Notes: a model not told the origin generated them from the sequence alone. Counted from the stretch's first letter, positions 17,185 to 52,372 are shown. The stretch: DNA of 64,000 bases from Bacillota bacterium (GCA_021799275.1 JAJZAT010000001.1:1-64000), one strand, 5' to 3'. Numbers and translations are program-made.

Positions 17185-17829
17185 TCAGCGCGACAAGAGC
17201 CGCATGTTCTGGGCGAGCGTCTTCAGCGTCGTGATCGAGACCGCTCGTCCGGTCAGGTACACGAGCACCCTGCCGTGCGCCTCCTGATGCATGAACGTCC
17301 ACCTTGTCTTGCCACCGAGGAACCAGACGAGGTTGCGCATCTTGCCGGCGAAGCCGAGCTTGCCGACCCCGACCCGCAGCCTGCCCGCCTGCCGAAGGCC
17401 AAGCTGCGCCGTGTCGGCCACCGCCCCGATCGCCTGGCGAAGGGTCGTCGCGTCTTGGTTCGCGGGCATCTCGAAGATCCAGACGACACCTGGCGGAATC
17501 GTGTCCTTGGGCAAGTGGAACTTCAGATCCGGGTTCACGCACTCGAGGGTCAGTTGCCAGAACGGCGGCGCCATGTCCACGGGCGGCGTCGTGGCGGTCT
17601 GAGAGGCCGTGGCGGCAGGTTGAAAAGCCCCGCTGCAACGGTAGTTCGCGACCCGCGGCACGAGGAGTCCGAGCGAAGCCGGAATGCGGGTCATCGGCGT
17701 CGCCTTGGACGCGTTCTTGGCCAGGACGATGGAAACACCGGGCGTACCGGACCGGCTGGCTTTCGAAGACGCGCAACCAGCCAGGAGAGCCATCCCAAGC
17801 AGTCCGGCCATCACGATATGGGCCTTCAT
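17185..17829 (-). CDS. Putative lipoprotein of unknown function
   Basis: A 214-residue protein beginning with a lipoprotein signal peptide: hydrophobic core and lipobox LLAGC (Cys about 19). The mature part has no recognised domain. It has two cysteines in YRC and LEC, which could pair outside the cell, and a basic C-terminal half. GGGAG precedes the chosen ATG. It should be anchored on the outer face of the cytoplasmic membrane. It is divergent from the SPOCS gene at 18076. Confidence 0.65.
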   Translation of the reverse strand: MKAHIVMAGLLGMALLAGCASSKASRSGTPGVSIVLAKNASKATPMTRIPASLGLLVPRVANYRCSGAFQPAATASQTATTPPVDMAPPFWQLTLECVNPDLKFHLPKDTIPPGVVWIFEMPANQDATTLRQAIGAVADTAQLGLRQAGRLRVGVGKLGFAGKMRNLVWFLGGKTRWTFMHQEAHGRVLVYLTGRAVSITTLKTLAQNMRLLSR

Positions 17830-17979: not shown

Positions 17980-18007
17980 CACCTTATGGCGAGCTCTGCC
18001 ATATAGT
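17980..18007 (+). promoter_or_regulatory. Sigma-K-like promoter of the SPOCS operon
   Basis: CACC (17980-17983), 16 bases, CATATAGT (18000-18007). It matches the AC / CATANNNT pattern of mother-cell sigma-K promoters and shares its exact spacing with four other promoters in the island. Confidence 0.6.
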
Positions 18008-18013
18008 GCGACA

Positions 18014-18050
18014 AACCGCGGTAACGGCTGTAGTGCTTCAGACCGCGGTT
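18014..18050 (+). promoter_or_regulatory. Stem-loop in the SPOCS operon leader
   Basis: AACCGCGGT (18014-18022) and ACCGCGGTT (18042-18050) form a 9-bp perfect stem with a 19-base loop. It begins about where transcription from the upstream promoter should start, so it could be an operator or a 5'-stabilising mRNA stem. Confidence 0.4.
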
Positions 18051-18075
18051 CTAGACCGCATGGGAGGGTCATGTC

Positions 18076-18495
18076 ATGCCAGCGAATCCTGACGTCGTCA
18101 TCCAGACGCCCTGCCCCGTACAGCCCAACTGCGTCTGCTCCACGGAAGTGATCGTGGACGGCGAGGTCGTCATCCCGCCCCAGAAGCCGGAAAAGGAGCG
18201 CATCCTCGAGTTCCGGGTGTCGGTCGAAGTCACCGACTGGCAGGTCATCAATACGCCGCTCGGCCACAAGGTGATCGTCTCGGGCGTCGTGCACATCGGC
18301 ATCGAGTATGTCGCCAACGTGCCCGACCAGGCGGTGCACTTCGCCCACTTTGATATCCCCTGGCACACCTTCTTCCTCTGCGCGGCCGAGCTCACCAACG
18401 TAACGGCGTGCATCGAGTACGCCGACTTCCAGCAGATCGACCCGCGGCACATCGCAAAGCTCGTCGTACTCTACGTCTGCGGCCAGGGGGTGTGA
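18076..18495 (+). CDS. Single-domain SPOCS (DUF3794) spore protein
   Basis: The 139-residue protein is essentially one SPOCS/DUF3794 domain after a short Cys/Pro-rich head (TPCPVQPNC). Conserved points are IPPQKPEKERIL, VSGVVHIGIEYVA, DQAVHFAHFDIPWHTF and QQIDPRHIAKL. SPOCS domains occur in SipL and other coat-assembly proteins, where they mediate binding to coat morphogenetic proteins. No signal peptide is present, which fits synthesis in the mother cell. It is first in an operon with the 1015-residue protein four bases downstream and has a sigma-K-like promoter. Confidence 0.8.
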   Translation: MPANPDVVIQTPCPVQPNCVCSTEVIVDGEVVIPPQKPEKERILEFRVSVEVTDWQVINTPLGHKVIVSGVVHIGIEYVANVPDQAVHFAHFDIPWHTFFLCAAELTNVTACIEYADFQQIDPRHIAKLVVLYVCGQGV

Positions 18496-18499
18496 CGCC

Positions 18500-21400
18500 A
18501 TGCCACCGGTGAACGTCCCGGCGGGCAGCCTGATCATCCCGATGGACACGTCCTACCAGAACCTCGGGATGTTCAAGGCCTACGGCCTCGTCGATCGATT
18601 GTTGCGCGTCGGCATCCCGGTCATGTGGGCGATCCAACCGGGAAAGGCATACAACGGCACGGACTTCGTCGCCTCGGCGACAGACTTCCAGACCGGCAGC
18701 GCCATCGTGAACCACAGCTACAGCGGCGGTCCGTTCATCATCGACCAGTCCCACAGGGCCGCGGCCGACCCCATCATCGCGGCCTGGCAGGCCAGCAACG
18801 CCACGGCCGTGCATGTCCTGACGGCCCCCAATCCCCTCGCCGCGCCCATCTTCGCCACGATGACCCGCGCGCCGCGCATCGCGGTCGAGCAGACCAACGC
18901 GAACATCGTGTTCGGCTACCTGAACGCCGCCGGGATAAGGGACGCCAACGGTAACGCCTGGTCCGGTTCCTCGCCGGGCGTCCTGAGCGCGACGGACATC
19001 GGCAACGGAGCCCTGGTCGGCTACAGCACAGCCGCGTGCCGTCGCCGCAGCTACGACATCTTCTACTCCCCGCACACCAGCGACGCGACGTGGATCAGCC
19101 CGAGCGCCCAGTCCGCGCTCGACGACTTCGTCAAGACGGGCGGCTACATCCACTCGATGTGCCACTCGATCAGCGCCATCGAGAACATCTTCTTCTTCCT
19201 GACTACCGGCATCCCCGCGTTCCCCAACAAGGGCGACACGGGGACCTTCACCGTCGACGTCCCGGACTACGGCCTGGACCAAGCCGTCGGGACGACGAAG
19301 CCCCAGGCCCTCCCCGGCGGCTCCGAGCAGACGTGGCTGCGCAGCGCGGTCACCTACCTCACGTACACGCGCACCATGGCGCACTTCCTCCACAGCGGGG
19401 CGCAGTACGACTTCATGATCACCGGCCCCTACAAGGGCGGCACGGGTGCCGGCACCGTCACCTACGAGGGCGGCCACTCCTATACGACCAGCGTGCCCTA
19501 CCTTAACAACGCGGACGGCCCGTATCTCCGCTTCGCGCTCAACTCCGAGCTGCTCTCCGTGGCCTTGCCGCACATCGACGTGATCCTGACGCCGAACCCG
19601 GCGCAGGCCGGCGTGCTGCAGACCATCACCGCCACGGTCTTCAACGATGGCGGCCAGACGGCCAGCAACCTCGACATCAGCATCACCCCTATTGCCGGCG
19701 CGACGAACATCACGGTCAGCACCCCGCCGACCACCGCCGGACCGCCGACGTGGACCTGGACGGGCCTCACGGCGGCTCCCGGCACCGTCCTGACCATGAC
19801 CTTCGACGTGACGCCGAGCATCGGCTACAACAACCTCCTGAGCTTCACATCGAGCTACAAGACGCCCGACGGCACCGGCTACGGCCTCTCCGCCTGCTCG
19901 GCGCTCACCGCGATCGAGGGTGCCCTGCCGTCGATCGTGAAGTCGCCGGCGGTTCAGGGCGCGTTCCCCAACACGAAGCCGTCCTGGACCATCACCGCCA
20001 GCAACACCTCGACGACGATCTCGCTCGACAACGTCGTCATCACGGACACGATTCCGGCAGGCCTCACCTACGACGCGGCAGGCACGTCGCCCACACCGAC
20101 GAGCGTCGTCGCCGGCCCGGCCGGCACGACGATCGTCACCTGGCAGGCGCCGGACATCCCTTCGAGCATTCCCGCCCCCGGGTCCCTTGCGACCACCTTG
20201 AGCGTCCTGACCCCGCCGGCGACCAGCGCGGGCTTCGTCAACACGGTGACCTTGACGGGGACGGACACCAAGGGCAACCAGTTCAACCTCAGCACCACGG
20301 CTGTGCTGGAGGTTACGGACCGTCCGCCGGTGGTGACGGTCACAAACCCGCTCACGGGCGACGAAGTCAGCGGCACGGTGCCCATCACCTGGACCGCCAG
20401 CGACCCCGATGGCGATCCGCTCACCTACGATGTCTACTACTCGCCGGATTGCGGCACCACCTGGCTGCTGCTCGCGACGGGGTTGACCGCCACCACCTTC
20501 GACTGGAACACCGTGGGCCTGAACGGCAGCGAGTTCCATGTCCGCGTCATCGCGAGCGACGGCCTGCTCACCGGCCAGGACGAGCAGGGACCGTTCGCCA
20601 TCGACAACACACCGCCCACGGTCCAGATCACCGCGCCACCGGCAGGTTCCACGCTCTGCGGCGACGTCACCCTGGAGGCCAACGCGGCCGACAACGTCGG
20701 CGTCACCCAGGTGATCTGGGAGTACTCGACCGACGGCGGGACCACCTGGCACTCGATCGGCACCGCCATAGGAGGAAACCCCTGGGCACAGGTGTTCGAG
20801 ACCACCCTGGTAGCGGATGGCCCGATCCAGATCCGGGCTACGGCCTACGACGCGCAGGGCAACCACGCGAGCGACACCCGGAGCTACATCGTCGACAACA
20901 CGCCGCCGACCGCCGCCATCGTTTCCCCGCCGTCCGGTTCCGAGGTGCAGGGCACGGTGACCGTCGTCGGCAGCGCGACGGACAACATCGCCGTCACCAA
21001 GGTGGAATGGTACATCGACGGCACGCTCGTCCTCACCCAGACGGCGCCCCCCTACCATCTCATCTGGGACACGACCATGTACATCGAAGGCCCGCACACC
21101 GTCTCGCTGGTCGCCTACGACGGATGCCCGCACACGGCCACCGCCACGGCCGACTACGTCGTCAACAACATCCCGGACCACGCCGTGGAGGTCGGCATCG
21201 ACCACGACATCGTCATCCCGCCGCAGAAGCCGCCGGCTGAGGCCATCCTGGATCACATCGTCCAGGTGCAATTCACCCGGGTGGTGGTCATCCCGACCCC
21301 CGACGGCACCAAGGTGATCATCCTCGGCGTCGTGCACGTCATCGTGAAGTACGTCGCCACCGATGAAGAGCAGTCGGTGCACGTGGTGGAGGCGGAGATC

Positions 21401-21547
21401 CCGTTCGAGACCTTCATCCTCTGGCCGGGTCTGCCGCCCGGCGCGTCCGTGGATGTCGCGGCCATCATCGAGGCGGCGATCTTCAAGCTCGTAGACCCGC
21501 GCACCATCAGCAAGTACATCGTCCTGCTGGTGACCGCTCAAGCGTAG
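18500..21547 (+). CDS. Giant multi-Ig spore-surface protein with C-terminal SPOCS domain
   Basis: This 1015-residue protein has no signal peptide. Residues 1-350 form a globular domain I do not recognise; it contains GGYIHSMCHSISAIEN, whose cysteine sits in a strand-turn-helix context somewhat like class I amidotransferases or ThuA. Next come a CARDB-like module (about 356-460), a DUF11-type repeat (475-603, with NVVITDTIPAGLTYD) and three bacterial Ig-like modules (about 605-700, 700-797, 797-887), two of which open with DNTPPT. Residues 893-1015 are a SPOCS/DUF3794 domain. The layout suggests a fibrous surface protein tethered to the coat by its C-terminus. AGGGGGTG precedes the ATG. Confidence 0.8.
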   Translation: MPPVNVPAGSLIIPMDTSYQNLGMFKAYGLVDRLLRVGIPVMWAIQPGKAYNGTDFVASATDFQTGSAIVNHSYSGGPFIIDQSHRAAADPIIAAWQASNATAVHVLTAPNPLAAPIFATMTRAPRIAVEQTNANIVFGYLNAAGIRDANGNAWSGSSPGVLSATDIGNGALVGYSTAACRRRSYDIFYSPHTSDATWISPSAQSALDDFVKTGGYIHSMCHSISAIENIFFFLTTGIPAFPNKGDTGTFTVDVPDYGLDQAVGTTKPQALPGGSEQTWLRSAVTYLTYTRTMAHFLHSGAQYDFMITGPYKGGTGAGTVTYEGGHSYTTSVPYLNNADGPYLRFALNSELLSVALPHIDVILTPNPAQAGVLQTITATVFNDGGQTASNLDISITPIAGATNITVSTPPTTAGPPTWTWTGLTAAPGTVLTMTFDVTPSIGYNNLLSFTSSYKTPDGTGYGLSACSALTAIEGALPSIVKSPAVQGAFPNTKPSWTITASNTSTTISLDNVVITDTIPAGLTYDAAGTSPTPTSVVAGPAGTTIVTWQAPDIPSSIPAPGSLATTLSVLTPPATSAGFVNTVTLTGTDTKGNQFNLSTTAVLEVTDRPPVVTVTNPLTGDEVSGTVPITWTASDPDGDPLTYDVYYSPDCGTTWLLLATGLTATTFDWNTVGLNGSEFHVRVIASDGLLTGQDEQGPFAIDNTPPTVQITAPPAGSTLCGDVTLEANAADNVGVTQVIWEYSTDGGTTWHSIGTAIGGNPWAQVFETTLVADGPIQIRATAYDAQGNHASDTRSYIVDNTPPTAAIVSPPSGSEVQGTVTVVGSATDNIAVTKVEWYIDGTLVLTQTAPPYHLIWDTTMYIEGPHTVSLVAYDGCPHTATATADYVVNNIPDHAVEVGIDHDIVIPPQKPPAEAILDHIVQVQFTRVVVIPTPDGTKVIILGVVHVIVKYVATDEEQSVHVVEAEIPFETFILWPGLPPGASVDVAAIIEAAIFKLVDPRTISKYIVLLVTAQA

Positions 21548-21555
21548 AAGGCGAT

Positions 21556-21588
21556 GCGGGAAGGCCTGCCCCGCGCAGGCCTTCCCGC
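21556..21588 (+). terminator. Perfect 14-bp hairpin between SPOCS genes
   Basis: GCGGGAAGGCCTGC, loop CCCGC, GCAGGCCTTCCCGC. It follows the giant protein gene by 8 bases and precedes the third SPOCS gene. With no T-run it may only attenuate, or stabilise the upstream message. Confidence 0.55.
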
Positions 21589-21611
21589 CATGCTGCGGAG
21601 GGATGGGCTCA

Positions 21612-22226
21612 ATGGCTGAGAATTCGGAACGCTGCGTGTTCTGCGAGATCGAAGACCTCCTCGACACCCTTCGCACCTTGATCGAGAGCACCGCCGAGGC
21701 GCTCGGCGAAAGCGTCCCAAGCGGCCGCGACGGCGGCGGGGGGCGCGCCCGACACGGCGGCTCGCACGCGCGTGGGAAGGACGGCAACAGGGACGACGAG
21801 GACGACTGCCACCGCCACCATGTGCACCCGCATCCTCGGCCGTGTCCTCCCGACCCGCACTGCGGCGAGTGCGAACTCGAGACCATCGTCGACGGCACCC
21901 TGACTGTGCCGCCGGAGAAGCCCGACATCGAGCGCATCCTGCGCTTCAATCCGACCTGTCGGATCACCCACTGGGAGGAGGTCCGGCCCCAAGGCAGGCG
22001 CAAGATCGTCGTCAGCGGCATCGTGGAGATCGGCGTCGAGTATGTGGCCGAGCTGCCGGACCAGTCCGTGCACTTCGCGCACTTCCTGGCCCCGTTCCAC
22101 ACGTTCTTCCTCTGCCGCGACGAGGTCCACGCCGTGCACTGCGAGGTCGAGTACACGCACTACGAACTGATCGACCCGCGGACTATCAGCAAGCTGGTGC
22201 TGCTCCACGTTTGGGCAGACCACTGA
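21612..22226 (+). CDS. SPOCS protein with CxxC head and His/Cys-rich linker
   Basis: A 204-residue protein. It begins with a CVFCEIEDLL head (CxxC) and a short helix, followed by a charged low-complexity linker and a His/Cys cluster (CHRHHVHPHPRPC, HCGEC, about 74-95) that could bind metal or cross-link. A SPOCS domain (about 95-204) is very similar to that of the 18076 protein (VSGIVEIGVEYVAELPDQSVHFAHF, IDPRTISKL). The start is the ATG at 21612, nine bases after GGAGGG. No separate promoter is seen, so it is probably read through from 18076. Confidence 0.75.
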   Translation: MAENSERCVFCEIEDLLDTLRTLIESTAEALGESVPSGRDGGGGRARHGGSHARGKDGNRDDEDDCHRHHVHPHPRPCPPDPHCGECELETIVDGTLTVPPEKPDIERILRFNPTCRITHWEEVRPQGRRKIVVSGIVEIGVEYVAELPDQSVHFAHFLAPFHTFFLCRDEVHAVHCEVEYTHYELIDPRTISKLVLLHVWADH

Positions 22227-22645
22227 GCACCAGCGGCGCGGGGCAGATGCCATGGGTCCAGCTTGGGCGCTGACCGCAGCGCCCAAGCCGTGTCCGGCCT
22301 TGGCAACGACCCCTGCCTGGCGAAGGGAACCAGGGCGCCAGAGAGCTCGCCCGGCCTTCTGCCCGGCGCGACGGGTTGGCTCGCCACCGCGCGCCCTCTA
22401 GGCCGGGATCCCTCCGGCGTTACCAGAGCCCAGCCGCACGAATACGATGGAACCGTGCGGCGGAGATCCGCCCGCGGCCACTAAGCGGGATCCCGCCGGT
22501 CGAGTCGTCCAAGTCCAGCTGAACCTGCGCCCCGCAAGCAGCCCCGCAAAGGCGCCAGCCCGGCCGGTCTGCCGGCCGCCGCTGGGCCAGACGGCCGACC
22601 GTCTTGGGTCTCAGGCCGAAGGTGTTGGTGGGAGGAGGCGGGCCT
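22227..22645. other. Intergenic region with stem-loops, no gene seen
   Basis: These 419 bases hold the terminator at 22261-22288, GCCGG-7-CCGGC (about 22412-22428) and CCGCACG-13-CGTGCGG (22434-22460). No frame looks like protein and I find no sigma-K-like promoter. Confidence 0.4.
22261..22288 (+). terminator. Terminator of the SPOCS operon
   Basis: An 11-bp perfect stem GCTTGGGCGCT / AGCGCCCAAGC with a 6-base loop, 35 bases after the last SPOCS gene. Confidence 0.6.
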
Positions 22646-23185
22646 GTGGGGATGCCTTGGCTTTCGGCCTGGCCGGGCCTTCTGGCGGCGCCGGTCGCCA
22701 TGGGTCGGGCCGTCGCGAGCCAATGCCACAGCTACGCCGCCATGGACTGGACGTTCGGCTCCCTGCTCGCTTTGCTGGCCATCGCACTCTACCTTCACCG
22801 CCGCGGCTGGCTGCAGGGCCTTGCCTCCGGCTGGATGACCGTCGGCCGCTGGTCGGGCACAGGCCCGGGGTGGACAGACGTCTTCGAGGTCAAGAGTTCG
22901 TGCTGGCGCTTACGCTGGCAGGCTGACGGCGGATCCCATCTTCTCGACGGAATCTTGCAGGGGATGCTGTACAGGTCCGACGGCACGGCCGTCGTCAACG
23001 CGTTCCTGCCGAACACCGCGCAGGCAGCCACGGGCACCGTCTACGTGGACGAGGGCCCGGGCCAGTACTTCATGATGCTGCACTGTGTCGCGTTCGAGTG
23101 GGAGATCGTGGTCGAGGAGCCCGCCGCGATCTTCTGGAGCCGTCTGGCCGCGCTGCTGCGCCGCGCGACGATGGCCCGGAGCTAG
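22646..23185 (+). CDS. Small membrane-anchored protein, function unknown
   Basis: A single hydrophobic segment (WTFGSLLALLAIALYLHRR) is followed by a roughly 110-residue cytosolic domain with a WRLRWQADGG strand, a hydrophobic core and a Trp-rich end (FEWEIVVEEPAAIFW). The hydrophobic-then-WxxxW pattern resembles small beta-sandwich domains seen in uncharacterised Bacillota proteins; I assign no function. The GTG at 22646 has GGAGGAGG seven bases upstream. The ATG at 22742, just before the membrane segment, is the alternative start but has no clear ribosome site. Confidence 0.55.
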   Translation: MGMPWLSAWPGLLAAPVAMGRAVASQCHSYAAMDWTFGSLLALLAIALYLHRRGWLQGLASGWMTVGRWSGTGPGWTDVFEVKSSCWRLRWQADGGSHLLDGILQGMLYRSDGTAVVNAFLPNTAQAATGTVYVDEGPGQYFMMLHCVAFEWEIVVEEPAAIFWSRLAALLRRATMARS

Positions 23186-23211
23186 GCCGCGAGCGGGCGC
23201 CCAAAGCCGGT

Positions 23212-23228
23212 CCCGCCCGATCGGCGGG
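23212..23228. terminator. Convergent terminator
   Basis: CCCGCC-CGATC-GGCGGG lies in the 54-base gap between the convergent 22646 and 23240 genes and can serve both. Confidence 0.45.
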
Positions 23229-23239
23229 TGGGTCGGCCG

Positions 23240-26200
23240 TCAACGCCGCTCGTGGAGCCGGCGTGCCAACTTTTTCAGCTCCGCCACGTCCAGGGACGGC
23301 AGACCGCACGCCTCGGCCTCCCGCGCGTAGACGGCCGCCCTGCTTCCCGCGCAGGGCAGGAAGGCGCTGGCCGCGGCGTAGAGCGATCCGCGATGCCGCG
23401 GCGGGATCTGCGTGGTCTCGAAGCGGATCGCGGGGGCATCGCTTGCGACGAGCGTCGCCAGCAAGGCGTCCAACTTCCCCCGGGCCCGCGTGACGAGGTC
23501 GGGCGAGGGAGGCTCGACACGGAGGACGAGCGCCACGGGATCGCGCCCTTCGAATCTCCGGACGTACGTCGCGACGACCCTCTTCCAGTCCTCCGCGTTC
23601 CAGTCCGGGATGCAAAGCAGCCGCTCCCTGCCCTGGGGCTCGGGCTCGATCGGCTCGAGCCCCGGGTGGAAGATCTCCTGGTAGCGGCAGGGAATGTGGT
23701 CCCACGCGTCCAGGAACGCTTCAGCGTCCTGCGGCGTCGGCAGCTTGCGCCCGAGGAGCCACTTGCTCCGGAAGATCTCCCAGTTCTCCGCCATGATGCG
23801 CGGGTAGTCGATGCCGCTCGAGCGGAACGTCGCGCTGCCGTGGTGGTGGATGAACACGTCGTCGGCCACGGCGAGATGAAACCCCGCCAGGACCGCTCTC
23901 AAGCAGTAGTCGTCGTCCTCGAAATTGCCCATGCCGAACCCGGTGTCGAGGCCGCCGATGCGCTCGACCACCTGCCGCCGCATGACCATAGAGACCCCGA
24001 CCACCCGCGCCACCGCGGTGAAGCCGCCTGCGTGCGAGCGGAACCAGCGCTCCGCGAAGGGCCTAAGGTCGCTCACGCCGCGGTAGGACTTGTCCTGCAC
24101 CTGCTGCACACCGGCGATGTAGTTGCTGCGCGGACCCACGATGCCGACCGTCTCGTCGAGCGACAGCAAGGCGAGCTGTCGGCCGAGCCAATGCGGCGTC
24201 ACGACCACGTCGTTGTTGAGCAGCACGATGAACGCGCCCTTCGCCAGGGCGAGCCCCTGGTTGCAGCCGTACGCATAGCCCTCGTTGCGGGCGTTGCGCA
24301 CGTAGACGACGTTGCCGTGCGTCTCTCTGAGCTCCTCGGCATAGTCCCCAACAGGTTCGGTGGAGCCGTTGTCGACGAGGATCAGCTCGAACTCCCGACC
24401 GGTGTGCTCGTACAGGGAGGCCACGCACTGCCGGGTCACCGCGAGGTTGTCATGCACAAGGCAGACGATGCTGGTGAGACCCTCCGTCGGACGGAACCAG
24501 TCGATGTCCCAGAGTTCCTGGCCGGAAGGCACCTTGCCGCGATAGGCGCGGTACAGTTTCTCGTAGAGCGCGTTGGCGCTCTGCTGCACGAGGTATTTCC
24601 CTCGGGCCGGGTCGCGCTGAAAACTCTTGTGGCCCTCGTGGTGCACGAAGGCGTCGGTCGCGACGAGCAGGCGCAGTCCCCTCTCGCGCAGGCGCAGGCT
24701 GAGGTCGAGGTCGTCGTGGCCCAGGAAGAGATCCGGGTCGAGACCGCCGAGGGCCAGGAGTTCCGCCCGGCGCAGGAGCATGCAGAAGCCGATCAGCACC
24801 TTCGTCTCCACCGCCTGGCCCGCCCGGCTCTCCTGCAGCAAGGCGGCCATGCGCTCGGGGTCGCTCGCGCCGAATTCGAGGTGCAGCGCCACGTTCTGCC
24901 GCCCGGCCACAAAGTCGGAGAGCGGACCCACCGCGCCGACGTCCCCGTGAGCGACCAGGTGCGCCATCATGCTCTCGAGCCAGCCGGACGCGACGATCAC
25001 GTCCGGGTTGAGGAGGCAGACGTAGTCGCGGCTGGCCTCCTTGAGCCCGAGATTGACGCCGCGGGAGAAGCCGAGATTCGCCTTGCCGCAAACGATGCGC
25101 AGCCGATCCGGATACCGGCCTTCGTACCACTTCAGATACGAGACGGTCGCGTCCTCGGACGCGTTGTCGACGACGATCACCTCGTCCTGCGGTCCGCTGT
25201 GGAGACGCAGGTGCTCGAGGCAGAGCGCGATCGTCTCGAGGGAGTTGTACGTCACCACGACGATGCTGACCCCTGGACGGGCGGGGTCCACCGGGGACGG
25301 CGTCGCCTCGGCGTAGCCGTCCCGGTCGAAGCCGCTCAGCCGGTCCATCCATGTCCGATGCAGGACGTCGAGGTTCTCGAGCTCCTTGTCGAAGCGGCCC
25401 ACCGTCGTGGAGCCGTGGTGCACGAGCACGCTGGCCGGTTCGTACACGATCCGGTACCCCGCCTCCCGCAGCCTCAGGCAGAGATCGACATCCTCATAGC
25501 CGTTCTCGTACCGCTCGTCGAAGCCCCCGACCGCCTTGAAGGCGGCGGAGCGCACCAGCATGGAGGCACCGGTCACCGACGTCACGTCGCGCGGGACCTC
25601 AAACTCCCCGCCCGGCGCCCGGTAGCCGATGTGCGCCGGACAGATCGGATAGGGGCTCGCGTAGCGCAGCTCGACGCCCGCATGCTGGATCGTGCCGTCC
25701 GGGAAGAGCAGCTTGCTGCCGGCCACCGCAATCGACGGATCGGCATCCGCCCGTGCGACGAGCGGCGCTAGCCAGTCCGCCCGAGCCTCGACGTCGTTGT
25801 TCAGGAAGACGAGGTACTTGCCGCGCGCGGCGAGGGCACCGCGATTGCAGGCTTTCGCGAATCCTTCGTTGTCCGTGTTGGTGAGCACCCGGACGCGGTC
25901 GCCCATCGACCTGAGCTCCGTCTCCGTCTCCGCGTCCACGCCGTTCTCGACCACGATGACCTCGTGCCGGATCAGGCCCGTATGCTGACGCAGGGCGTCG
26001 AGGCACTTGGCCGTATAGGGCCACTGCCCGTGGACAGGAATGACGATCGACACGAGCGGAGGCTCATCGGCCTGGATCGAGACCATTCCGTCCCCAGCCG
26101 CCCGCGGCCGGGCGAGAGCGTCCAGCACCTGGTACCAGCGGTCCGCGTGGTCCGAGAGCAGCCAGTTGCTGCGCACGTCGTCCTGCGCCCGCGCAGCGAT

Positions 26201-27697
26201 GTCCTGCCGAAAGCCCACGTCCTCCACCAGCCTGCAGATGGCGTCGTACCACTGCCCGCCGGAAACCAGTAGACCCGTCGTGCCGTCGCGCACGGTGCCG
26301 CGGTACGGCGGAAGGTCCGCGTAGATTCCGGCGATGCCTGCGGCCGCGTACTCGAGGTACTTGATGTGGCTCTTGGCCAGATTGAAGCGGGATGGCCGCA
26401 GCGGCGCGAGCCCGATGTCGATGTCCGCGCCCTGCAGATCCCGTGGAAACGTCCAGCGGTAGTCCTCGCTGAACGGCCGGGACTCGGTGCCCTCCCCGAG
26501 TGCCTGTGCCCACGCGGGCTGACAGCCCAGGAAGCGGAATCGCACCCGGGAGCCGTAGCGCCGTGCGACCGCAAGGAGGACGTCTTGCAGCTCATCGATG
26601 TCCGGAAGGTGCGTCGGGGTCGCCGCGTACCCGATGGTCACCACGCGGGAGGGGCGCCGGGGCCCCTCCATAGTCCAGATGTTGTCGTCGAGGTAGTTGG
26701 GAAGGACGAAGACGTTCCGGTTCCAGCGCAGGATCTCCCCACGCAACTGCTCGGAGGAGACGGTGACGGCGTCCGCTTCGCGGATCGCTTCGATGAACGT
26801 CCCGCCCCTCGACTGGTACCAGGAGGCCTTCGGGTGTTCGGGCGGGAGATCGGTCAGGAGGTCGTCCAGCTCGTACAGCACGGGCAGGTGGAGGCCCCGC
26901 GCGGCGGACACGATTTCCGCCGCCGCGGGACTCAAGGGAAATTCCCGCTGCACGAGCACCACATCCGCGTCGCGCAGGGCTTCCGCCGTGACCGCCCAGG
27001 TCTTGTCCGTCCTCTGACAGCCCCGGTGCAGCACCGCGCGCTCCATGCGGGAGAGGTGGGACATGGGGCCGCTCACGCGGATCAGCGGCGAGGCCGACGA
27101 GGGATTGGCGAAGGCGTAATAGGCCACGTGGAGACGAGCCGGTCCCGTCCTGCGGAACAGCATGGCCCACGGCGCGACGAAACTGAGGTCGAAGGCCCTA
27201 TCGAGCGTGAAGCCTCTCTCCTCGAAGCAGGACAGCCAGTAGCTGCGCGGCCGCACGTGGACGTGCGTCAGCTCATAGTGGTCGTCGGGGCTCGACGAGA
27301 ACAGCACGGTCTCCGCGTGCCGGCAGACGTTGTCGAGCGCAAGCTTCACATCCGCCCCGGCAAGGTGCTCCGCCACCTCGATGAAGGTGATGAGGCTGTA
27401 GCTTCGCTCGAGCGGCTCGGTGGCGGACCCGACGCGGCACCACGGCCGCATGTCGGGCCTGACCTGCGAGATGGCGTAGGTGGAGGTGTCGATGCCGAAC
27501 GCCTCGATGCCCTGGTCCCTGAGCGCTTCCACCAGGAAGCCCTTGGCGCACCCGACATCCATGACGCTCTCCGGTCTCAGCCTGGCCTTGATGTGCTGCG
27601 CGATCGTGCGGAAGAAGCGCAGGAACGCGTCATGCGACCGGTCGTAGGGCACAGGACCGCAATAGTGGCCGTAATAGTCCTCGCCGTACAGCTCCAA
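23240..27697 (-). CDS. Five-module methyltransferase/glycosyltransferase fusion
   Basis: A 1485-residue glycan-assembly protein. Residues 1-190 are a SAM methyltransferase (SVMDVGCAKGFLVEAL near 44). About 200-540 is a GT-B glycosyltransferase-like domain (LYELDDLL, EYAAAGIAGIY). Three GT-A family-2 domains follow: about 547-790 (SIVIPVHGQWPY, VFLNNDVEA), 804-1070 (SIVVVTYNS, CLLNPDV) and 1072-1330 (SIVCLVHDN, VLLNNDV). A C-terminal region (1360-1485) looks like another GT fragment. It probably builds several linkages of one surface glycan and should be cytosolic. The TTG at 27697, behind GAGGTG, fits the sigma-K-like promoter 30 bases upstream. Confidence 0.85.
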   Translation of the reverse strand: MELYGEDYYGHYCGPVPYDRSHDAFLRFFRTIAQHIKARLRPESVMDVGCAKGFLVEALRDQGIEAFGIDTSTYAISQVRPDMRPWCRVGSATEPLERSYSLITFIEVAEHLAGADVKLALDNVCRHAETVLFSSSPDDHYELTHVHVRPRSYWLSCFEERGFTLDRAFDLSFVAPWAMLFRRTGPARLHVAYYAFANPSSASPLIRVSGPMSHLSRMERAVLHRGCQRTDKTWAVTAEALRDADVVLVQREFPLSPAAAEIVSAARGLHLPVLYELDDLLTDLPPEHPKASWYQSRGGTFIEAIREADAVTVSSEQLRGEILRWNRNVFVLPNYLDDNIWTMEGPRRPSRVVTIGYAATPTHLPDIDELQDVLLAVARRYGSRVRFRFLGCQPAWAQALGEGTESRPFSEDYRWTFPRDLQGADIDIGLAPLRPSRFNLAKSHIKYLEYAAAGIAGIYADLPPYRGTVRDGTTGLLVSGGQWYDAICRLVEDVGFRQDIAARAQDDVRSNWLLSDHADRWYQVLDALARPRAAGDGMVSIQADEPPLVSIVIPVHGQWPYTAKCLDALRQHTGLIRHEVIVVENGVDAETETELRSMGDRVRVLTNTDNEGFAKACNRGALAARGKYLVFLNNDVEARADWLAPLVARADADPSIAVAGSKLLFPDGTIQHAGVELRYASPYPICPAHIGYRAPGGEFEVPRDVTSVTGASMLVRSAAFKAVGGFDERYENGYEDVDLCLRLREAGYRIVYEPASVLVHHGSTTVGRFDKELENLDVLHRTWMDRLSGFDRDGYAEATPSPVDPARPGVSIVVVTYNSLETIALCLEHLRLHSGPQDEVIVVDNASEDATVSYLKWYEGRYPDRLRIVCGKANLGFSRGVNLGLKEASRDYVCLLNPDVIVASGWLESMMAHLVAHGDVGAVGPLSDFVAGRQNVALHLEFGASDPERMAALLQESRAGQAVETKVLIGFCMLLRRAELLALGGLDPDLFLGHDDLDLSLRLRERGLRLLVATDAFVHHEGHKSFQRDPARGKYLVQQSANALYEKLYRAYRGKVPSGQELWDIDWFRPTEGLTSIVCLVHDNLAVTRQCVASLYEHTGREFELILVDNGSTEPVGDYAEELRETHGNVVYVRNARNEGYAYGCNQGLALAKGAFIVLLNNDVVVTPHWLGRQLALLSLDETVGIVGPRSNYIAGVQQVQDKSYRGVSDLRPFAERWFRSHAGGFTAVARVVGVSMVMRRQVVERIGGLDTGFGMGNFEDDDYCLRAVLAGFHLAVADDVFIHHHGSATFRSSGIDYPRIMAENWEIFRSKWLLGRKLPTPQDAEAFLDAWDHIPCRYQEIFHPGLEPIEPEPQGRERLLCIPDWNAEDWKRVVATYVRRFEGRDPVALVLRVEPPSPDLVTRARGKLDALLATLVASDAPAIRFETTQIPPRHRGSLYAAASAFLPCAGSRAAVYAREAEACGLPSLDVAELKKLARRLHERR

Positions 27698-27727
27698 TGG
27701 ACAAACACCTCGCAAAGGTCCTTTGCC

Positions 27728-27755
27728 AGCGTATGCCCCGCGATGGCGCGATGTC
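27728..27755 (-). promoter_or_regulatory. Sigma-K-like promoter of the glycosyltransferase fusion
   Basis: On the minus strand GACA (27752-27755), 16 bases, CATACGCT (27728-27735), about 30 bases ahead of the TTG start. It is divergent from the promoter at 27828-27855. Confidence 0.6.
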
Positions 27756-27827
27756 TCCGAAGGGCTGGAGGCCCTGCACCCTCCAGCCCAGGGCCGCGAA
27801 GGGACCGGCAGGCCCGCTTGCCGCCTG

Positions 27828-27855
27828 CACGGGATCGGTTGCCCGCTCATAGGCT
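27828..27855 (+). promoter_or_regulatory. Sigma-K-like promoter of the 27888 gene
   Basis: CACG (27828-27831), 16 bases, CATAGGCT (27848-27855). The same -10 octamer occurs at 30088 and, on the minus strand, upstream of spoIVFA. Confidence 0.6.
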
Positions 27856-27887
27856 GCAGCAGGGAAGCTATGCGAGGAGGTCGCGCC

Positions 27888-28070
27888 GTGAAGCCAGAGG
27901 GGAGCGGCGATCCAGGGGCCGCGAGGCGGGACGAGGAGTGGGCCAGGGCCCAGTTCTGGATCGACGAGACCGCCCAGGTACTCAGCCGCGCTGTCGCCAG
28001 CCTGCCGGATTCCCTGCCCCTGCGCTCCCTTGCGGATCACATCCGCCGGGAGGTCGACCGGCGTGCCTGA
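27888..28070 (+). CDS. Small protein coupled to a glycosyltransferase gene
   Basis: A 60-residue charged, probably helical protein (DEEWARAQFWIDETAQVLSR, ending in DHIRREVDRRA). I do not recognise it. The GTG start has GAGGAGG eight bases upstream and a sigma-K-like promoter about 33 bases ahead. Its stop overlaps the next gene's GTG start region by 8 bases, so translation of the glycosyltransferase is probably coupled. It could be a partner or chaperone of that enzyme. Confidence 0.55.
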   Translation: MKPEGSGDPGAARRDEEWARAQFWIDETAQVLSRAVASLPDSLPLRSLADHIRREVDRRA

Positions 28071-30099
28071 GCAGGCCCGCATCACGCTCTGCATCATTGC
28101 CAGGGACGAGGAGGACAACCTCGGACGCTGCCTTGCGAGCGCGAGGGGCGCGGTCGACGAGATCGTGGTCGTGGACACGGGCTCGCAGGACGCCACCGCG
28201 AGCGTGGCGGCTTCCTTCGGCGCACGCGTCGTGCACGCGCCCTGGACCAACGACTTCGCTTCCGCCAGGAACCGGAGCCTCGCAGAGGCTTCGGGGGACT
28301 GGCTGCTCTGGCTGGACGCCGACGACGAGCTGTCGGCCGAGGCGCGCGAGATGCTCCGCCCTCTGGTGCGCATCGCGACCCCCGACGTCATGGGTTACCA
28401 GTTCGTCATCGCGAGCTGGGTCGGCGACAAGTCGGGCGGCGCCCAGATGTGCATCGCGCAGACGCGCCTTTGGCGCAGTCGCCCCGAGCACCGCTTCCAC
28501 GGCGCGATCCACGAGTGGCTGGCCGTCGATTCGGTGGTGGCGACGGACCTCAAGATCTTCCACTACGGCTACCTGTCGGACCCTCGGGTGCAGCGCCGCA
28601 AGTCGGCGCGCAACATCGGCCTCCTGCGCGAGCAGCTGCGCCAGAATTCCGAGGACGCGCGCTACATCGGCTACCTGGCGGTCGAACTGGCGGTGGCGGG
28701 CCGCCTGCCGCAGTCGCTCGTCCACTTCCGCCGCTCGTGGAGCCTGGCGAGAATCCACTACGTCGGCGAGCGCTACGCGCGCACCCTCATGACCCTGCGC
28801 CGGTTCGCTCTGGCGCGGCAGGTGCTCGAGGAAGCGATCGACCGCTTCCCGGACTATACGGACCTCCACTACCACTACAGCTGCGTCCTGCGGGAACTTG
28901 GCGAGTACGGCGGGGCACGGGCGGCGGCGAGGCGCTGCCTGGAGCTCGGAACCCCATCCGGCGGCTACGTCTCCCTCGAGGGATACGGAAGCTTCCTCGC
29001 GCACCTGCAGCTCGCGCTGATCGAGGCCGACCTGCACAACTGGGGAGCGGCCATCGAGGAAAGCCAGCAGGCGCTTCTCGGGAGGCCCGACCTGACACTC
29101 GCGCTCTCGCCCCTCGTGAAGGCCCTGATCGCGGTCGCCGGCCCGAGTAGGGCGCGGGACCTCTTCAGCGACGAGAGCGGCGTGGGACCGGCCATGCTCC
29201 GCCTGCTCGCCCGGGAGTTTGCGCAGGTCGGCGCATGGGCCGAAGCCCTCGACCTGCTGCGCCAGGCCGGGACCGATGGCGAACTTCCCGGCGATCAGCT
29301 CGTCGGGGCCGAATGCCTTCTGGCGCAAGGCGACGTGCGGGCGGGAGCGGAGCGCCTGGCGGCCCTGCAGGGCAAGGAGTTCATTCTGAACGCAGCGAGG
29401 CGCAGGACGAGCCTCGTCCTTTCCTGGATCACGGCCTGGATGCGCGGCGACATCGCCGCCGCCGCCTCGCTGCTGCAGGCTGCGCGCGGGCGCAGCCGCG
29501 GCGCGACGGCAGCCCTCAGGGCTTTGCAGGATCGGCTCCTGGGATCCGACGTCGCGCTCCCCGCCCTTGCCGAGAGCAGGCTCACCCTCCTGGAGCTGGC
29601 GGAGAAGACGATGCTCGTGGGCCGCTGGGATCTGACCGAACAGGTGATCGAGCTGCTGAAGGGGTACGGCGATCGGGTCGAGGTGCCGGCGGTCATCGGC
29701 CGCCTGCTCGTCCGCTACGGCCACGCGGACATCGCCGTCCCCTATCTGCGGGACGCCCTCGCCCACTGGGGACGGCGACGCAAGGCCCTGCCACGCTCAG
29801 GCGGCGACGCCTGCGATCTCTGGCTGGATCTTGGCGAGGCTTACCTCGCGGCGAGCGACTGGGCGGAGGCGGCGAGGAGCTTCCGGCAGGCTTTAGCCCT
29901 CGGCCCCAACAGGCTCGAAGCCCACCTGGGTCTCGCCGAAGCCCATCTGCGGCGGTGCCAGGACCTCGTGCCAGAGGGCGATCGCGCCGCCTGGGCGGAC
30001 CTGGCGCAGGAAGCGCGACTCGAGCGCTTCGCCGCCCTGGGGGCTCCTGCCGCTCAACGACCCCAGACACCGTCGGCGGCGGCGGGACATAGGCTTTAG
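28063..30099 (+). CDS. Family-2 glycosyltransferase with TPR repeats
   Basis: A 678-residue protein. Residues 1-230 are a GT-A domain of the SunS/YcjM-like type: TLCIIARDEEDNLGRCL, DEIVVVDTGSQDAT, NDFASARNRSL and a WLLWLDADDEL metal-binding DxD. About 240-678 is a run of TPR-like helical pairs that may recognise a protein acceptor, as in peptide- or protein-glycosylating enzymes. No signal peptide or membrane segment is seen. The GTG at 28063 lies 9 bases after GGGAGG. Its 3' end contains the promoter for the next gene. Confidence 0.82.
   Translation: MPEQARITLCIIARDEEDNLGRCLASARGAVDEIVVVDTGSQDATASVAASFGARVVHAPWTNDFASARNRSLAEASGDWLLWLDADDELSAEAREMLRPLVRIATPDVMGYQFVIASWVGDKSGGAQMCIAQTRLWRSRPEHRFHGAIHEWLAVDSVVATDLKIFHYGYLSDPRVQRRKSARNIGLLREQLRQNSEDARYIGYLAVELAVAGRLPQSLVHFRRSWSLARIHYVGERYARTLMTLRRFALARQVLEEAIDRFPDYTDLHYHYSCVLRELGEYGGARAAARRCLELGTPSGGYVSLEGYGSFLAHLQLALIEADLHNWGAAIEESQQALLGRPDLTLALSPLVKALIAVAGPSRARDLFSDESGVGPAMLRLLAREFAQVGAWAEALDLLRQAGTDGELPGDQLVGAECLLAQGDVRAGAERLAALQGKEFILNAARRRTSLVLSWITAWMRGDIAAAASLLQAARGRSRGATAALRALQDRLLGSDVALPALAESRLTLLELAEKTMLVGRWDLTEQVIELLKGYGDRVEVPAVIGRLLVRYGHADIAVPYLRDALAHWGRRRKALPRSGGDACDLWLDLGEAYLAASDWAEAARSFRQALALGPNRLEAHLGLAEAHLRRCQDLVPEGDRAAWADLAQEARLERFAALGAPAAQRPQTPSAAAGHRL
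30068..30095 (+). promoter_or_regulatory. Sigma-K-like promoter of the first exosporium-type gene
   Basis: CACC (30068-30071), 16 bases, CATAGGCT (30088-30095). It lies inside the last codons of the glycosyltransferase-TPR gene, 45 bases ahead of the ATG at 30140. Confidence 0.6.
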
Positions 30100-30139
30100 T
30101 GATCGCACCGGTTGAGCCGAAGCGACAGGAGGGATCCGC

Positions 30140-30424
30140 ATGGGCGTTCCGACCATCCCCACGCTACCCAGCATCCCGAAGAACAGGGTCATCGGCAGTC
30201 TCCTGGCCACCGTCGCCATCGAAGAGGCGGCGCTCGCGCACCTGGTGAACGCGGAGGCTGAAAAGGTGCAGCGGCTCGCCGCGACCATGCCCGCGCCCTC
30301 CACGTTCGAGCAGGCCGCCGAGATGCAGAAGATCGTTCTAGCCGTCATGAACGCGGTGGCGCTGAAGGAACTGCTGCTGGGCGAGAAGATCCAGAGGGTC
30401 ATGTCCATCACCATCGATCCCTGA
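30140..30424 (+). CDS. Short exosporium-type protein, paralogue 1
   Basis: A 94-residue protein resembling short proteins near exosporium and coat clusters in Bacillus and Paenibacillus: a Pro-rich head (MGVPTIPTLPSIP), a hydrophobic helix with EEAALAHLVNAEAEKVQ, a middle MPAPSTFEQAAEMQKIV and an end KELLLGEKIQRVMSI. It has no signal peptide. It is likely a helical building block of the spore surface. An AGGAGGG site precedes the ATG. Nearly identical copies start at 30662 and 31163. Confidence 0.7.
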   Translation: MGVPTIPTLPSIPKNRVIGSLLATVAIEEAALAHLVNAEAEKVQRLAATMPAPSTFEQAAEMQKIVLAVMNAVALKELLLGEKIQRVMSITIDP

Positions 30425-30489
30425 CTCGGCACAAGGCAACCTGCGCATGGGCAAGGCGCGAACCCGCCCGTCGGACGGGACCGCGGCCT

Positions 30490-30505
30490 GTCCGCACGAA
30501 CGGAC
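30490..30505 (+). terminator. Weak hairpin after paralogue 1
   Basis: GTCCG-CACGAA-CGGAC, about 65 bases past the stop. Short stem, no T-run. Confidence 0.3.
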
Positions 30506-30661
30506 TCCCTGGGATGACGGGCCCCCCCGGCTCCATGCGCCCACGCGCCACGCCCGCGGCACGACGTCCGCAGGATCCGGCTGACCCCTTCCCCGACCCC
30601 GTCGACAGCGACAGAGCCAAAGCTCTGGCTTGCATCCGCCAGTGTATGGGAGGAATGCGGC

Positions 30662-30985
30662 GTGGGAGTTCCGACCATCCCCTCTCTTCCCAGCATCCCG
30701 AGCTCCCGGATCATCGGCGGCCTGCTGGCCACGGTCGCCCTCGAGGAGGCAGCCCTCGCGCACCTCGTGAACGCGGAGGCGGAGAAGGTGCAGCGGCTGG
30801 CGGCGACCATGCCAGCGCCCTCCACATTCGAGCAGGCGGCCGAGATGCAGAAGATCGTCCTTGCCGTCATGAACGCGGTGGCGCTGAAAGAACTGCTGCT
30901 GGGCGAGAAGATCCAGCGGGTTCTGTCCATTTCGTTCGATGTCTGCCCGCCCTGCCCGCCTTGCCCGCCTTGCCCGACCTGCTGA
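30662..30985 (+). CDS. Short exosporium-type protein, paralogue 2, with Cys-Pro tail
   Basis: A 107-residue paralogue of the 30140 protein with the same Pro-rich head, EEAALAHLVNAEAEKVQ helix and KELLLGEKIQRVLSI end. It alone carries an extra tail of cysteine-proline repeats (CPPCPPCPPCPTC). Such a tail could form interchain disulfides or bind metal in the coat. It starts at GTG behind GGGAGG. I find no promoter of the family type directly upstream; it may be read through from paralogue 1. Confidence 0.68.
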   Translation: MGVPTIPSLPSIPSSRIIGGLLATVALEEAALAHLVNAEAEKVQRLAATMPAPSTFEQAAEMQKIVLAVMNAVALKELLLGEKIQRVLSISFDVCPPCPPCPPCPTC

Positions 30986-30994
30986 CAAAGCTCG

Positions 30995-31010
30995 CTGCCG
31001 AACGCGGCAG
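30995..31010 (+). terminator. Hairpin after paralogue 2
   Basis: CTGCCG-AACG-CGGCAG, ten bases past the paralogue 2 stop. Confidence 0.4.
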
Positions 31011-31094
31011 TCTGGCGCGACCCGCGCTCGCCGCATGACCAACGCCCCGCCAGAAGCATTGCATCTCTTCGCATCTTTCCTGCCCGAATCCCCA

Positions 31095-31122
31095 CACCGC
31101 CGCCACGGGCCGAACATAGTCT
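31095..31122 (+). promoter_or_regulatory. Sigma-K-like promoter of paralogue 3
   Basis: CACC (31095-31098), 16 bases, CATAGTCT (31115-31122), about 40 bases ahead of the ATG at 31163. Confidence 0.6.
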
Positions 31123-31162: not shown

Positions 31163-31447
31163 ATGGGTGTTCCTACGATACCGAGCCTGCCCAGCATCCC
31201 CAAGGCCAACGTCATCAGCAGCCTTTTGGCCACCGTCGCCATCGAGGAGGCGGCGCTGGCGCACCTCGTGAACGCGGAGGCCGAAAAGGTGCAGCGACTC
31301 GCCGCGACCATGCCGACGCCGTCGACGTTCGAGCAGGCGGCCGAGATGCAGAAGATCGTTCTCGCGGTCATGAACGCGGTGGCGCTGAAGGAGCTGCTGC
31401 TGGGCGAGAAGATCCGCAGGGTCATGTCCATCACCATCGACCCCTGA
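31163..31447 (+). CDS. Short exosporium-type protein, paralogue 3
   Basis: A 94-residue paralogue differing from paralogue 1 at only a few positions in the head and middle (for example KANVISSLLATVAIEEAA and MPTPSTFEQAAEM). The start is the ATG of MGVPTIPSLPSIP, behind GGGAGG; twelve further codons upstream are open but lie in the promoter leader. It has its own sigma-K-like promoter and a strong terminator. Confidence 0.7.
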   Translation: MGVPTIPSLPSIPKANVISSLLATVAIEEAALAHLVNAEAEKVQRLAATMPTPSTFEQAAEMQKIVLAVMNAVALKELLLGEKIRRVMSITIDP

Positions 31448-35210: not shown

Positions 35211-36959
35211 TTGAATCCTAGCCAACTGATCCGTCCGTTTGTCCTGCAACGCAAATGGGGCTACCTGGCGGCGACGCTCGCGGTGGCATTCGCCGAATTC
35301 TGCCAGGTGCGCATTCCGTACATCCTCGGCGGCTTCATCGACCGGCTCAAGGTCGGCGGTGCGGGCGGTCACGTCATCGTCCTTTACGCCGTAGAGCTCG
35401 CCGCCGCGGCTGCGGGCTACGTGGTGCTCTTCGGAATCGGACAGACGCAGATTGGCAACTTGGGCCGCACTTGGGAGTTCGAAACGCGGCAGCGGCTCTT
35501 CGCGCACTGGGAAACGCTGAGCTCGCGCTATTTCCAGACACGAAGCGTCGGCGACCTGCTGAACCACTCCCTGAATGACGTCACATCTGTCCGACAGGCG
35601 CTCTCCATGGGCGTCAACCAGATCAGCCAGGCGGTTTTCCTGCTTCTCGCCACCTTGTTCATGACCATCGAGACGATCAACCTCCGGCTTACCCTGTTCA
35701 GTCTGCTGCCGCTGCTGTTCATCCCGGTCGTGATCTCCTTGATCCGGCCGCAGGTGCGCCTCCGCTCCCGCCTCGTCCAGGAGAGCCTCTCGGACATGTC
35801 CGCGTTGGCCGAAGAGAGCTTTCAAGCGATCCGGGTGATCAAGGCGGTCTCGAACGAGCCGGTTGAGGTGTCGCGGTTCACCAGGAAGACCCAGACGATC
35901 GTCGACCGTCAGATGAGCCTCGTCCGCCTGAACACCCTGTTCCAGGCGCTTGTTCCACTGCTCAGCGGCGTGGGCTTCACGGTCGGACTCGTCTACGGCG
36001 GCTGGCTGGTCATCCACGGCGGCATCTCGCTCGGCGGCTTCGTCGCCTTCACGGTGTATCTCAGCATGCTTGTACGGCCATTGATGCAGTTTGGCATCGT
36101 CATCAACCTCTTTCAGAACGCGTCCGCTTCCGTCACCCGCATTCAGGCCCTCTTGGCGGTCGAACCGGACATCAGGGATCCCGAGACGCCCGTGGTGCGA
36201 GAGATGTGGCACGGCGAACTGACGGCGCGTGATTTGACCTTCGCCTACCCGGGCACGGAGAACCCCGCGCTGGCCGGGGTGGCGTTCGACGTGCCCGCCG
36301 GCACGACGCTGGGCATCGTCGGGAGAACCGGGGCCGGGAAGACCACCCTTCTGAACCTCCTGCTGCGCGATTACGATCCGCCGGCCGGCACCGTCCTGTT
36401 CGACGGCGTGGACATCCGCGAGATGCGGCTCTGGGACCTCCGGCACCTCATCGCCTATGTGCCCCAGGACGGGTTCCTCTTTTCCACGTCGGTCGGCAAC
36501 AACATCGCCTTCTCCCAGCCAGAGGTGGTGCCGGACGCCATCGAGGCGGCGGCAACGCAGTCGCGCATCTGGGACACGATCCAATCGATGCCGGAGGGCA
36601 TCGACACCCTGATCGGAGAACGCGGCATCATGCTGTCCGGAGGTCAGCGGCAGCGGACCGCCATCGCGCGGGCGCTGATCAAGAGCGAGGCGAAGATTCT
36701 CATCCTGGACGACAGCCTGTCGGCGGTCGACACGGGAACCGAGAGCGAAATCATCCACATGCTGCGCAGGGTGCGCGGGAAGAAGACCACGGTCATCGCC
36801 GCGCACCGCCTTTCCGCGGTCCGCGACGCCGACCAGATCATCGTGCTGGACAAAGGCGTCATCGTGCAGCGCGGCAGCCACAGGGATCTCATTCGGCAGC
36901 CGGGGCTGTACCGGGATCTCTACCGGATCCAGACGGGTGGTGCATCGCTCCATGCCTAG
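35211..36959 (+). CDS. ABC exporter half-subunit with degenerate Walker B
   Basis: A 582-residue type IV ABC exporter half: six membrane helices then an NBD with GRTGAGKTTLLN, Q-loop PQDGFLF, signature LSGGQRQRTA and H-loop AAHRLSAV. Walker B ends LILDDSLSAVD, with Asp replacing the catalytic Glu, which is typical of one partner in heterodimeric exporters such as BmrCD. The TTG start at 35211 has GAGGTG six bases upstream. It overlaps the next gene by 8 bases. Confidence 0.88.
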   Translation: MNPSQLIRPFVLQRKWGYLAATLAVAFAEFCQVRIPYILGGFIDRLKVGGAGGHVIVLYAVELAAAAAGYVVLFGIGQTQIGNLGRTWEFETRQRLFAHWETLSSRYFQTRSVGDLLNHSLNDVTSVRQALSMGVNQISQAVFLLLATLFMTIETINLRLTLFSLLPLLFIPVVISLIRPQVRLRSRLVQESLSDMSALAEESFQAIRVIKAVSNEPVEVSRFTRKTQTIVDRQMSLVRLNTLFQALVPLLSGVGFTVGLVYGGWLVIHGGISLGGFVAFTVYLSMLVRPLMQFGIVINLFQNASASVTRIQALLAVEPDIRDPETPVVREMWHGELTARDLTFAYPGTENPALAGVAFDVPAGTTLGIVGRTGAGKTTLLNLLLRDYDPPAGTVLFDGVDIREMRLWDLRHLIAYVPQDGFLFSTSVGNNIAFSQPEVVPDAIEAAATQSRIWDTIQSMPEGIDTLIGERGIMLSGGQRQRTAIARALIKSEAKILILDDSLSAVDTGTESEIIHMLRRVRGKKTTVIAAHRLSAVRDADQIIVLDKGVIVQRGSHRDLIRQPGLYRDLYRIQTGGASLHA

Positions 36960-39386: not shown

Positions 39387-39626
39387 CTATCGTTCAAGGC
39401 TCTGGATACGCTGCTCGTGGTCCTCCAGCTTACTGTCGAGGGTTTCCTTGATCGCCTGCACGCCCTCCCCGACTAGGCCCACCTTCTTGTCGACCTGTTC
39501 GATCAAGACGCGGGCCTGCACGTGGAGGTGTTCGGCATGCTCGCGGGTGTCGTTGTTGAGATCGACCACTCGCATGACGAGGCTCTCCTGCATCGCGTCC
39601 AGATACGCCTTCAGCTCCGGGTCCAT
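39387..39626 (-). CDS. Small coiled-coil protein of the relic element
   Basis: A 79-residue, strongly helical, charged protein (MDPELKAYLDAMQESL, heptads through RVLIEQVDKKVGLV, to the end SKLEDHEQRIQSLER). Short coiled coils like this often flank integrase genes on mobile elements; the function is unknown. The ATG at 39626 has GGGAG 8 bases upstream. It ends 11 bases before the integrase fragment in the same orientation. Confidence 0.5.
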   Translation of the reverse strand: MDPELKAYLDAMQESLVMRVVDLNNDTREHAEHLHVQARVLIEQVDKKVGLVGEGVQAIKETLDSKLEDHEQRIQSLER

Positions 39627-52343: not shown

Positions 52344-52372
52344 AGCCTATGCTGCGGCCTGTCCCGCCATGC
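52344..52372 (-). promoter_or_regulatory. Sigma-E-like promoter of spoIVFAB
   Basis: On the minus strand GCATGG (52367-52372) and CATAGGCT (52344-52351), 14 bases after an ATGGC core. The -10 octamer fits the CATANNNT shared by mother-cell sigma factors; spoIVF is sigma-E dependent in Bacillus. It sits between rodA and spoIVFA. Confidence 0.5.

Follow-up and report, generated by a model that had tools for sequence, protein, structure and literature searches.

The window analysed here is a stretch of 64,000 nt from a Bacillota bacterium (GCA_021799275.1, JAJZAT010000001.1:1-64000). It carries a cluster consisting of a SPOCS operon and of glycosyltransferase, A-ENA-type, dTDP-rhamnose and ABC transporter genes (Table 1). 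The three SPOCS proteins scored 33.2, 35.2 and 28.6 bits against PF12673, whose gathering score is 23.6. SipL has a C-terminal LysM domain; since a Pfam search found no LysM domain in any of the three, they were not classed as SipL. The DUF11 and Ig-like domains of the operon (18076-22226) were confined to its middle, 1015-aa SPOCS protein. DUF11 domains are also present in the F-ENA anchor proteins of Clostridia (PMC11952670), an analogy at most suggestive of an anchor role for this protein. Among the sugar genes, rmlA and rmlB scored above the cut-off and the RmlD-like and RmlC-like genes below it. Taken together, the glycosyltransferase and dTDP-rhamnose genes make it plausible that a glycosylated layer is built.

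Table 1. Features of the window. Promoters are predictions named after the sigma factor assigned to them.
Position	Strand	Feature	Basis or sequence
17185-17829	−	Lipoprotein-like gene, divergent from SPOCS operon	
17981-18007	+	Candidate SigK-type promoter, SPOCS operon	cACC-N16-CATATAGT
18076-18495	+	SPOCS-domain protein, 139 aa	PF12673, E 6e-8
18500-21547	+	1015-aa protein: N-terminal part without family, DUF11, three Big_7 stretches, C-terminal SPOCS	Pfam
21612-22226	+	SPOCS-domain protein, 204 aa	PF12673, E 1.7e-6
23240-27697	−	1485-aa protein: methyltransferase, GT4-like and three GT2 glycosyltransferase domains	Pfam
27728-27754	−	Candidate SigK-type promoter, gene 23240-27697	gACAt-CATACGCT
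27829-27855	+	Candidate SigK-type promoter, genes 27888/28063	CACG-N16-CATAGGCT
27888-28070	+	Small ORF, 60 aa, without family	
28063-30099	+	GT2 glycosyltransferase with TPR repeats, 678 aa	Pfam
30069-30095	+	Candidate SigK-type promoter, first A-ENA-type gene	CACC-N16-CATAGGCT
30140-30424	+	A-ENA-type endospore appendage subunit (likely), 94 aa	phmmer, fold match
30662-30985	+	A-ENA-type paralog, 107 aa, CPPCPPCPPCPTC tail	
31096-31122	+	Candidate SigK-type promoter, third A-ENA-type gene	CACC-N16-CATAGTCT
31163-31447	+	A-ENA-type subunit (likely), 94 aa	
31618-34957	+	dTDP-rhamnose-type genes: rmlA, RmlD-like, RmlC-like, rmlB	
35211-36959	+	ABC transporter gene 1	Far end of accessory block
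36937-38778	+	ABC transporter gene 2	Similarity to gene 1
50903-51793	−	SpoIVFB-like, M50-type	Pair with SpoIVFA-like
51790-52326	−	SpoIVFA-like, M23-type	Pair with SpoIVFB-like
52344-52371	−	Candidate SigE-type promoter, SpoIVFA/SpoIVFB-like pair	CATG-N16-CATAGGCT

Three small paralogs lie between the glycosyltransferase and rml genes. The protein encoded at 30140 matched PDB 9ihh_A over residues 1-90 in a single-sequence phmmer search (E 2.2e-12), and the family profile matched PDB 9IHH with E 2.2e-25. An AlphaFold model built with window and locus sequences was a two-helix hairpin (pLDDT 86.6), for which a fold search returned 9ihh_A first (probability 1.00, TM 0.69, E 3.4e-3). PDB 9IHH is the subunit of ‘Ex vivo spore-silk A-ENA fibers’. 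Because both sequence and predicted fold match it, the three paralogs are likely endospore-appendage subunits, predicted to form fibres, and not the exosporium-type proteins of the original prediction. The A-ENA-type proteins tested had no Pfam or NCBIfam model, and a literature search for A-ENA or a peptide of its family found no relevant text. The CPPCPPCPPCPTC tail was present only on the middle paralog, which is possibly a cross-linking or capping subunit and for which no promoter of its own was found. Six more genomes of the class had A-ENA relatives, as did Natroniella acetigena, where five tandem A-ENA-type genes adjoin a SPOCS protein (PF12673, E 1.5e-10). This neighbourhood was found in Natroniella only and not in the six class genomes, in which most contigs are short.

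The original prediction had described five promoter-like sites in the cluster, each with an nACn box, 16 bases and CATANNNT. A scan of the 64-kb window with the equivalent pattern AC-N17-CATANNNT recovered all of them on the correct strands (17981+, 27829+, 30069+, 31096+ and 27728−), 31-69 nt 5' of start codons. Measured from the end of CATANNNT, the distances were 69 nt to the start at 18076, 33 nt to 27888, 45 nt to 30140, 41 nt to 31163 and 31 nt to 27697. The window contained seven matches in total, against a shuffle mean of 0.73, and none of 100 shuffles reached seven. Two of these were discounted: the match at 39605+ covers a start codon read in reverse, and 17981− is the opposite-strand reading of a near-palindrome. 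Owing to this near-palindrome, the minus strand of 17981-18007 also reads CACT-N16-CATAAGGT, pointing almost equally well to the lipoprotein-like gene, whose start is about 150 nt away. The −35 box was CACC or CACG in four of the five sites and gACAt at 27728−. The final A of the Bacillus consensus CATANNNTA, a preference that was not treated as defining, was present in none of them. The candidate promoter at 30069-30095 sits within the 3' end of the upstream gene, and that at 31096-31122 may perhaps also serve the rml genes. Contrary to what the original prediction had claimed, CATANNNT by itself was not rare, with 19 occurrences observed and 15.5 expected.

Spacing and position were examined in a 0.935-Mb sample that included the window and represented 30% of the genome, with gene starts called by a simple script. 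There, 12 of 19 AC-N17-CATANNNT sites lay 10-110 nt 5' of a predicted start. The 19 alternative spacers together placed 20 of 165 sites there, on average 1.05 for each spacer (Poisson P 1.5e-9). Of the 20 spacers compared, only spacer 17 was enriched before starts, and it remained so when the window was removed from the sample (7 versus 0.79; P 2e-5). Scrambled cores gave 0-3 sites before starts. A comparison independent of the −35 box showed enrichment of CACC at −20 to −17 in CATANNNT sites before starts relative to other CATANNNT sites. Raw genome-wide counts of the bare AC-N17-CATANNNT showed no excess and equalled the reversed control (41 versus 41). The signal is one of position and spacer, not of the raw count of the pattern. 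The longer form CACC-N16-CATANNNT occurred 54 times in six genus members versus 17 for its reversed control, and 8 times versus 8 in three related genomes of the order, none of which has spoIVA. Among A-ENA genes elsewhere, 4 of 14 had AC-N16/17-CATANNNT within 100 nt of the start, versus 0.16 expected (P ~1e-5), and 10 of the 14 lacked the strict pattern.

The genome encodes SigK, SigE and SigG, all above curated cut-offs, as well as a SigF/SigB/SigG-family protein. In Clostridioides difficile and Bacillus subtilis, SigE and SigK have a common −10 box and differ at −35 (ATA versus AC), a choice that tracks a residue which is glutamine in SigE and arginine in SigK (PMC3789822). In an alignment, the corresponding region read GISRSYVSRIEKR in SigK and GISQSYISRLEKR in SigE, i.e. 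R versus Q. From the alignment and the Bacillus sequences, we take these positions to be residue 217. All six members of the genus had CACCC and CATACCAT 5' of dpaA, around a spacer of variable sequence; in both C. difficile and B. subtilis this gene depends on SigK (PMC3789822). In 11 genomes the SigE target spoIVA had a CATA −35 box and a −10 box of CATATGAT or similar sequence, and the SpoIVFA-like gene had CAT at −35 in most genomes that allowed placement. A weak AC-N17-CATAGTCT 148 nt 5' of spoIVA was not kept in all relatives and was set aside, since the nearer CATA-CATATGAT was the one conserved in the 11 genomes. Before the SpoIVFB/SpoIVFA-like pair, which resembles SigK-activating machinery, CATG-N16-CATAGGCT was conserved in the genus.

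With CAC at dpaA and CAT at spoIVA and spoIVFA, the −35 box separates a SigK class from a SigE class, and four of the five window sites carry CAC. SigK-type promoters are therefore the best reading of the five sites on sequence grounds, in agreement with the sigma-K assignment and late mother-cell link proposed originally. Besides the surface genes, the motif preceded dpaA, one YtaF-like and one DUF444/YhbH-like gene, and further genes without known function. Hence it serves core sporulation genes too and does not define a surface-only regulon. The YtaF-like and DUF444/YhbH-like genes are SigE targets in Bacillus. Here both genes, which scored below the NCBIfam cut-off, had CACC, so SigE may share some CACC sites, which is the main caveat.

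Comparison with relatives indicates that the cluster is accessory, being missing in genome G052 and partly kept in genome G050. The searches run found no SPOCS or A-ENA genes in other genomes of the order. Genes 16018 and 39387 of the window are adjacent in G052, so about 22 kb is absent there; the junction lacking this block lies between their orthologs at L200:8626-9187. In G050, the rml genes were present, as was the large glycosyltransferase over its C-terminal two-thirds (86-91% identity; 86% for this partial relative of 23240-27697). Its rmlA is directly 3' of the divergent promoter region, in which both −10 boxes and one AC were kept while the intergenic DNA was 70% identical. At the counterpart of 27728−, AC-N17-CATACGTT was retained with a different spacer; at that of 27829+, 5' of rmlA, the −10 box was kept (CATAGGTT) and the −35 box was not. 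Several relatives are draft assemblies with a completeness of 76-90%, so absence of the cluster in any single one is not certain. As the cluster occurs in one genome and partly in a second, most of its own sites cannot be footprinted. Beside the rml genes, G050 encodes two proteins without a Pfam match (L194:229-1828), where the window has other genes. Transposase/integrase-like and ATPase-like genes were seen in G049 near the would-be island border (L196:972-2659).

Three other explanations of the sites were weighed. One is that SigE is the main factor acting on them, or acts on them as much as SigK does, in which case the genes would form part of a broad mother-cell programme instead of a late one. 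The −10 box common to both factors (PMC3789822), the CACC at the YtaF-like and DUF444/YhbH-like genes and the weak site before spoIVA, though not kept in all relatives, are compatible with this. Against it, CAT is the box at spoIVA and spoIVFA throughout the family and CAC the box at dpaA within the genus, and the R/Q residues differ as they do in species whose factors discriminate, which makes a SigE-centred explanation unlikely.

Alternatively, the boxes could be bound by a different regulator, such as a DNA-binding dimer at 17981-18007; the almost palindromic sequence of that site, promoter-like on both strands, would fit this. We consider it very improbable, since the remaining four sites are not palindromic, and two boxes at fixed spacing before gene starts have the form of sigma-factor recognition. 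Least probable of all is a chance cluster in G+C-rich DNA, chosen after the fact: the raw genome counts matched the reversed control and CATANNNT alone was not enriched, but position, spacer and core specificity held outside the window too, and orthologous sites were conserved.

We therefore favour SigK and assign a probability of roughly 0.8 to the five sites being promoters for SigK RNA polymerase that drive a late spore-surface programme. Points against SigK are the CACC at the YtaF-like and DUF444/YhbH-like genes, the loss of the −35 box of 27829+ in G050, the gACA in place of CAC at 27728−, the absent final A of CATANNNTA, the limited scope for footprinting and the 10 of 14 A-ENA genes elsewhere without the strict pattern. 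In the proposed mechanism, SpoIVFB-type cleavage of pro-SigK would be followed by activation of these promoters in late sporulation, when RNA polymerase carrying SigK would read the −35 CAC(C/G), 16 bases and the −10 CATANNNT. Late in the mother cell, SigK would thereby switch on the SPOCS operon, the multi-domain glycosyltransferase, the GT2-TPR glycosyltransferase and the A-ENA subunits. The dTDP-rhamnose genes would probably be co-switched with the upstream A-ENA genes, being read from the promoter at 31096 or 27829. The products, made in the mother cell, would come together on the surface of the spore in the form of fibres and of proteins bearing sugars; the fibres would be glycosylated, and SPOCS proteins may anchor them by a link to the coat. 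Since a shared late-sporulation switch precedes surface, sugar and fibre genes, their joint activation to dress the spore is probable.

The promoters resemble the SigK promoters of B. subtilis and C. difficile in the −35 AC, the −10 CATA, a spacing within the known range and their use before dpaA and surface-polysaccharide genes (PMC517825, PMC3789822), and the two sigma factors show the same R versus Q difference (PMC3789822). They differ in having CAC(C/G) at −35, no final A of CATANNNTA and a single spacer length, in a genome of 68% G+C. For the sugar part, the nearest parallel is the sps operon of B. subtilis (spsABCDEFGIJKL), whose genes for spore-surface sugars are SigK-driven and include a dTDP-rhamnose pathway, spsIJKL (PMC7439481, PMC517825). 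Unlike in that operon, the rml genes here adjoin A-ENA, SPOCS and large glycosyltransferase genes, and no promoter was identified directly 5' of rmlA, save for the −10 box kept in G050. The putative fibre proteins share a near-full-length subunit sequence, an MGxPTIP start and a two-helix fold with the A-ENA ‘spore-silk’ subunit (PDB 9IHH), but differ in being three in tandem, with a Cys-Pro tail on one of them. The S- and L-ENA genes of Bacillus are, according to a published proposal, likely under SigK control (PMC12921279). Late mother-cell expression, as predicted here, is a likeness to the S-, L- and F-ENA of Bacillus and Clostridia, which are different kinds of fibre; the subunits of F-ENA belong to the DUF4183 proteins, and no homology is claimed (PMC12921279, PMC11952670).

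The promoter is thus of a known kind, and what is new is the fibre-plus-sugar island and the promoters over A-ENA genes. The −35 switch between SigE and SigK, together with the R/Q residue, would extend to a G+C-rich, little-studied lineage, in which CAC versus CAT offers a sequence rule for mother-cell regulons. As A-ENA genes in several genomes have SigK-type promoters, the proposal of SigK control of spore fibres becomes directly testable. The locus further suggests an exchangeable island for the spore surface, in which genes for fibres and for sugars adjoin. Only tentatively do we suggest a mobile or readily lost 22-kb island for SigK-timed, rhamnose-decorated A-ENA fibres tied to the coat by SPOCS proteins, with SPOCS and A-ENA forming a functional unit common with the distant Natroniella.

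A GT2-TPR gene and a 180-aa protein of unknown function, both with AC-N17-CATANNNT, were located on contig C52 (~43-47 kb; L056/L057, L087), likely a second spore-surface locus of the same genome. Upstream of this glycosyltransferase, the CATA box was kept across the family and a CAC box in several relatives. A small protein of unknown function (VIWFGLAIGVLLLIW...; L054:2628-2978, plus strand) had a CACC-N16-CATAGGGT promoter throughout the genus, and the relative in G045 (L204) of an F420-ligase-domain protein (L059:1868-2575, minus strand) also had a CACC promoter; both proteins are candidate new sporulation genes.
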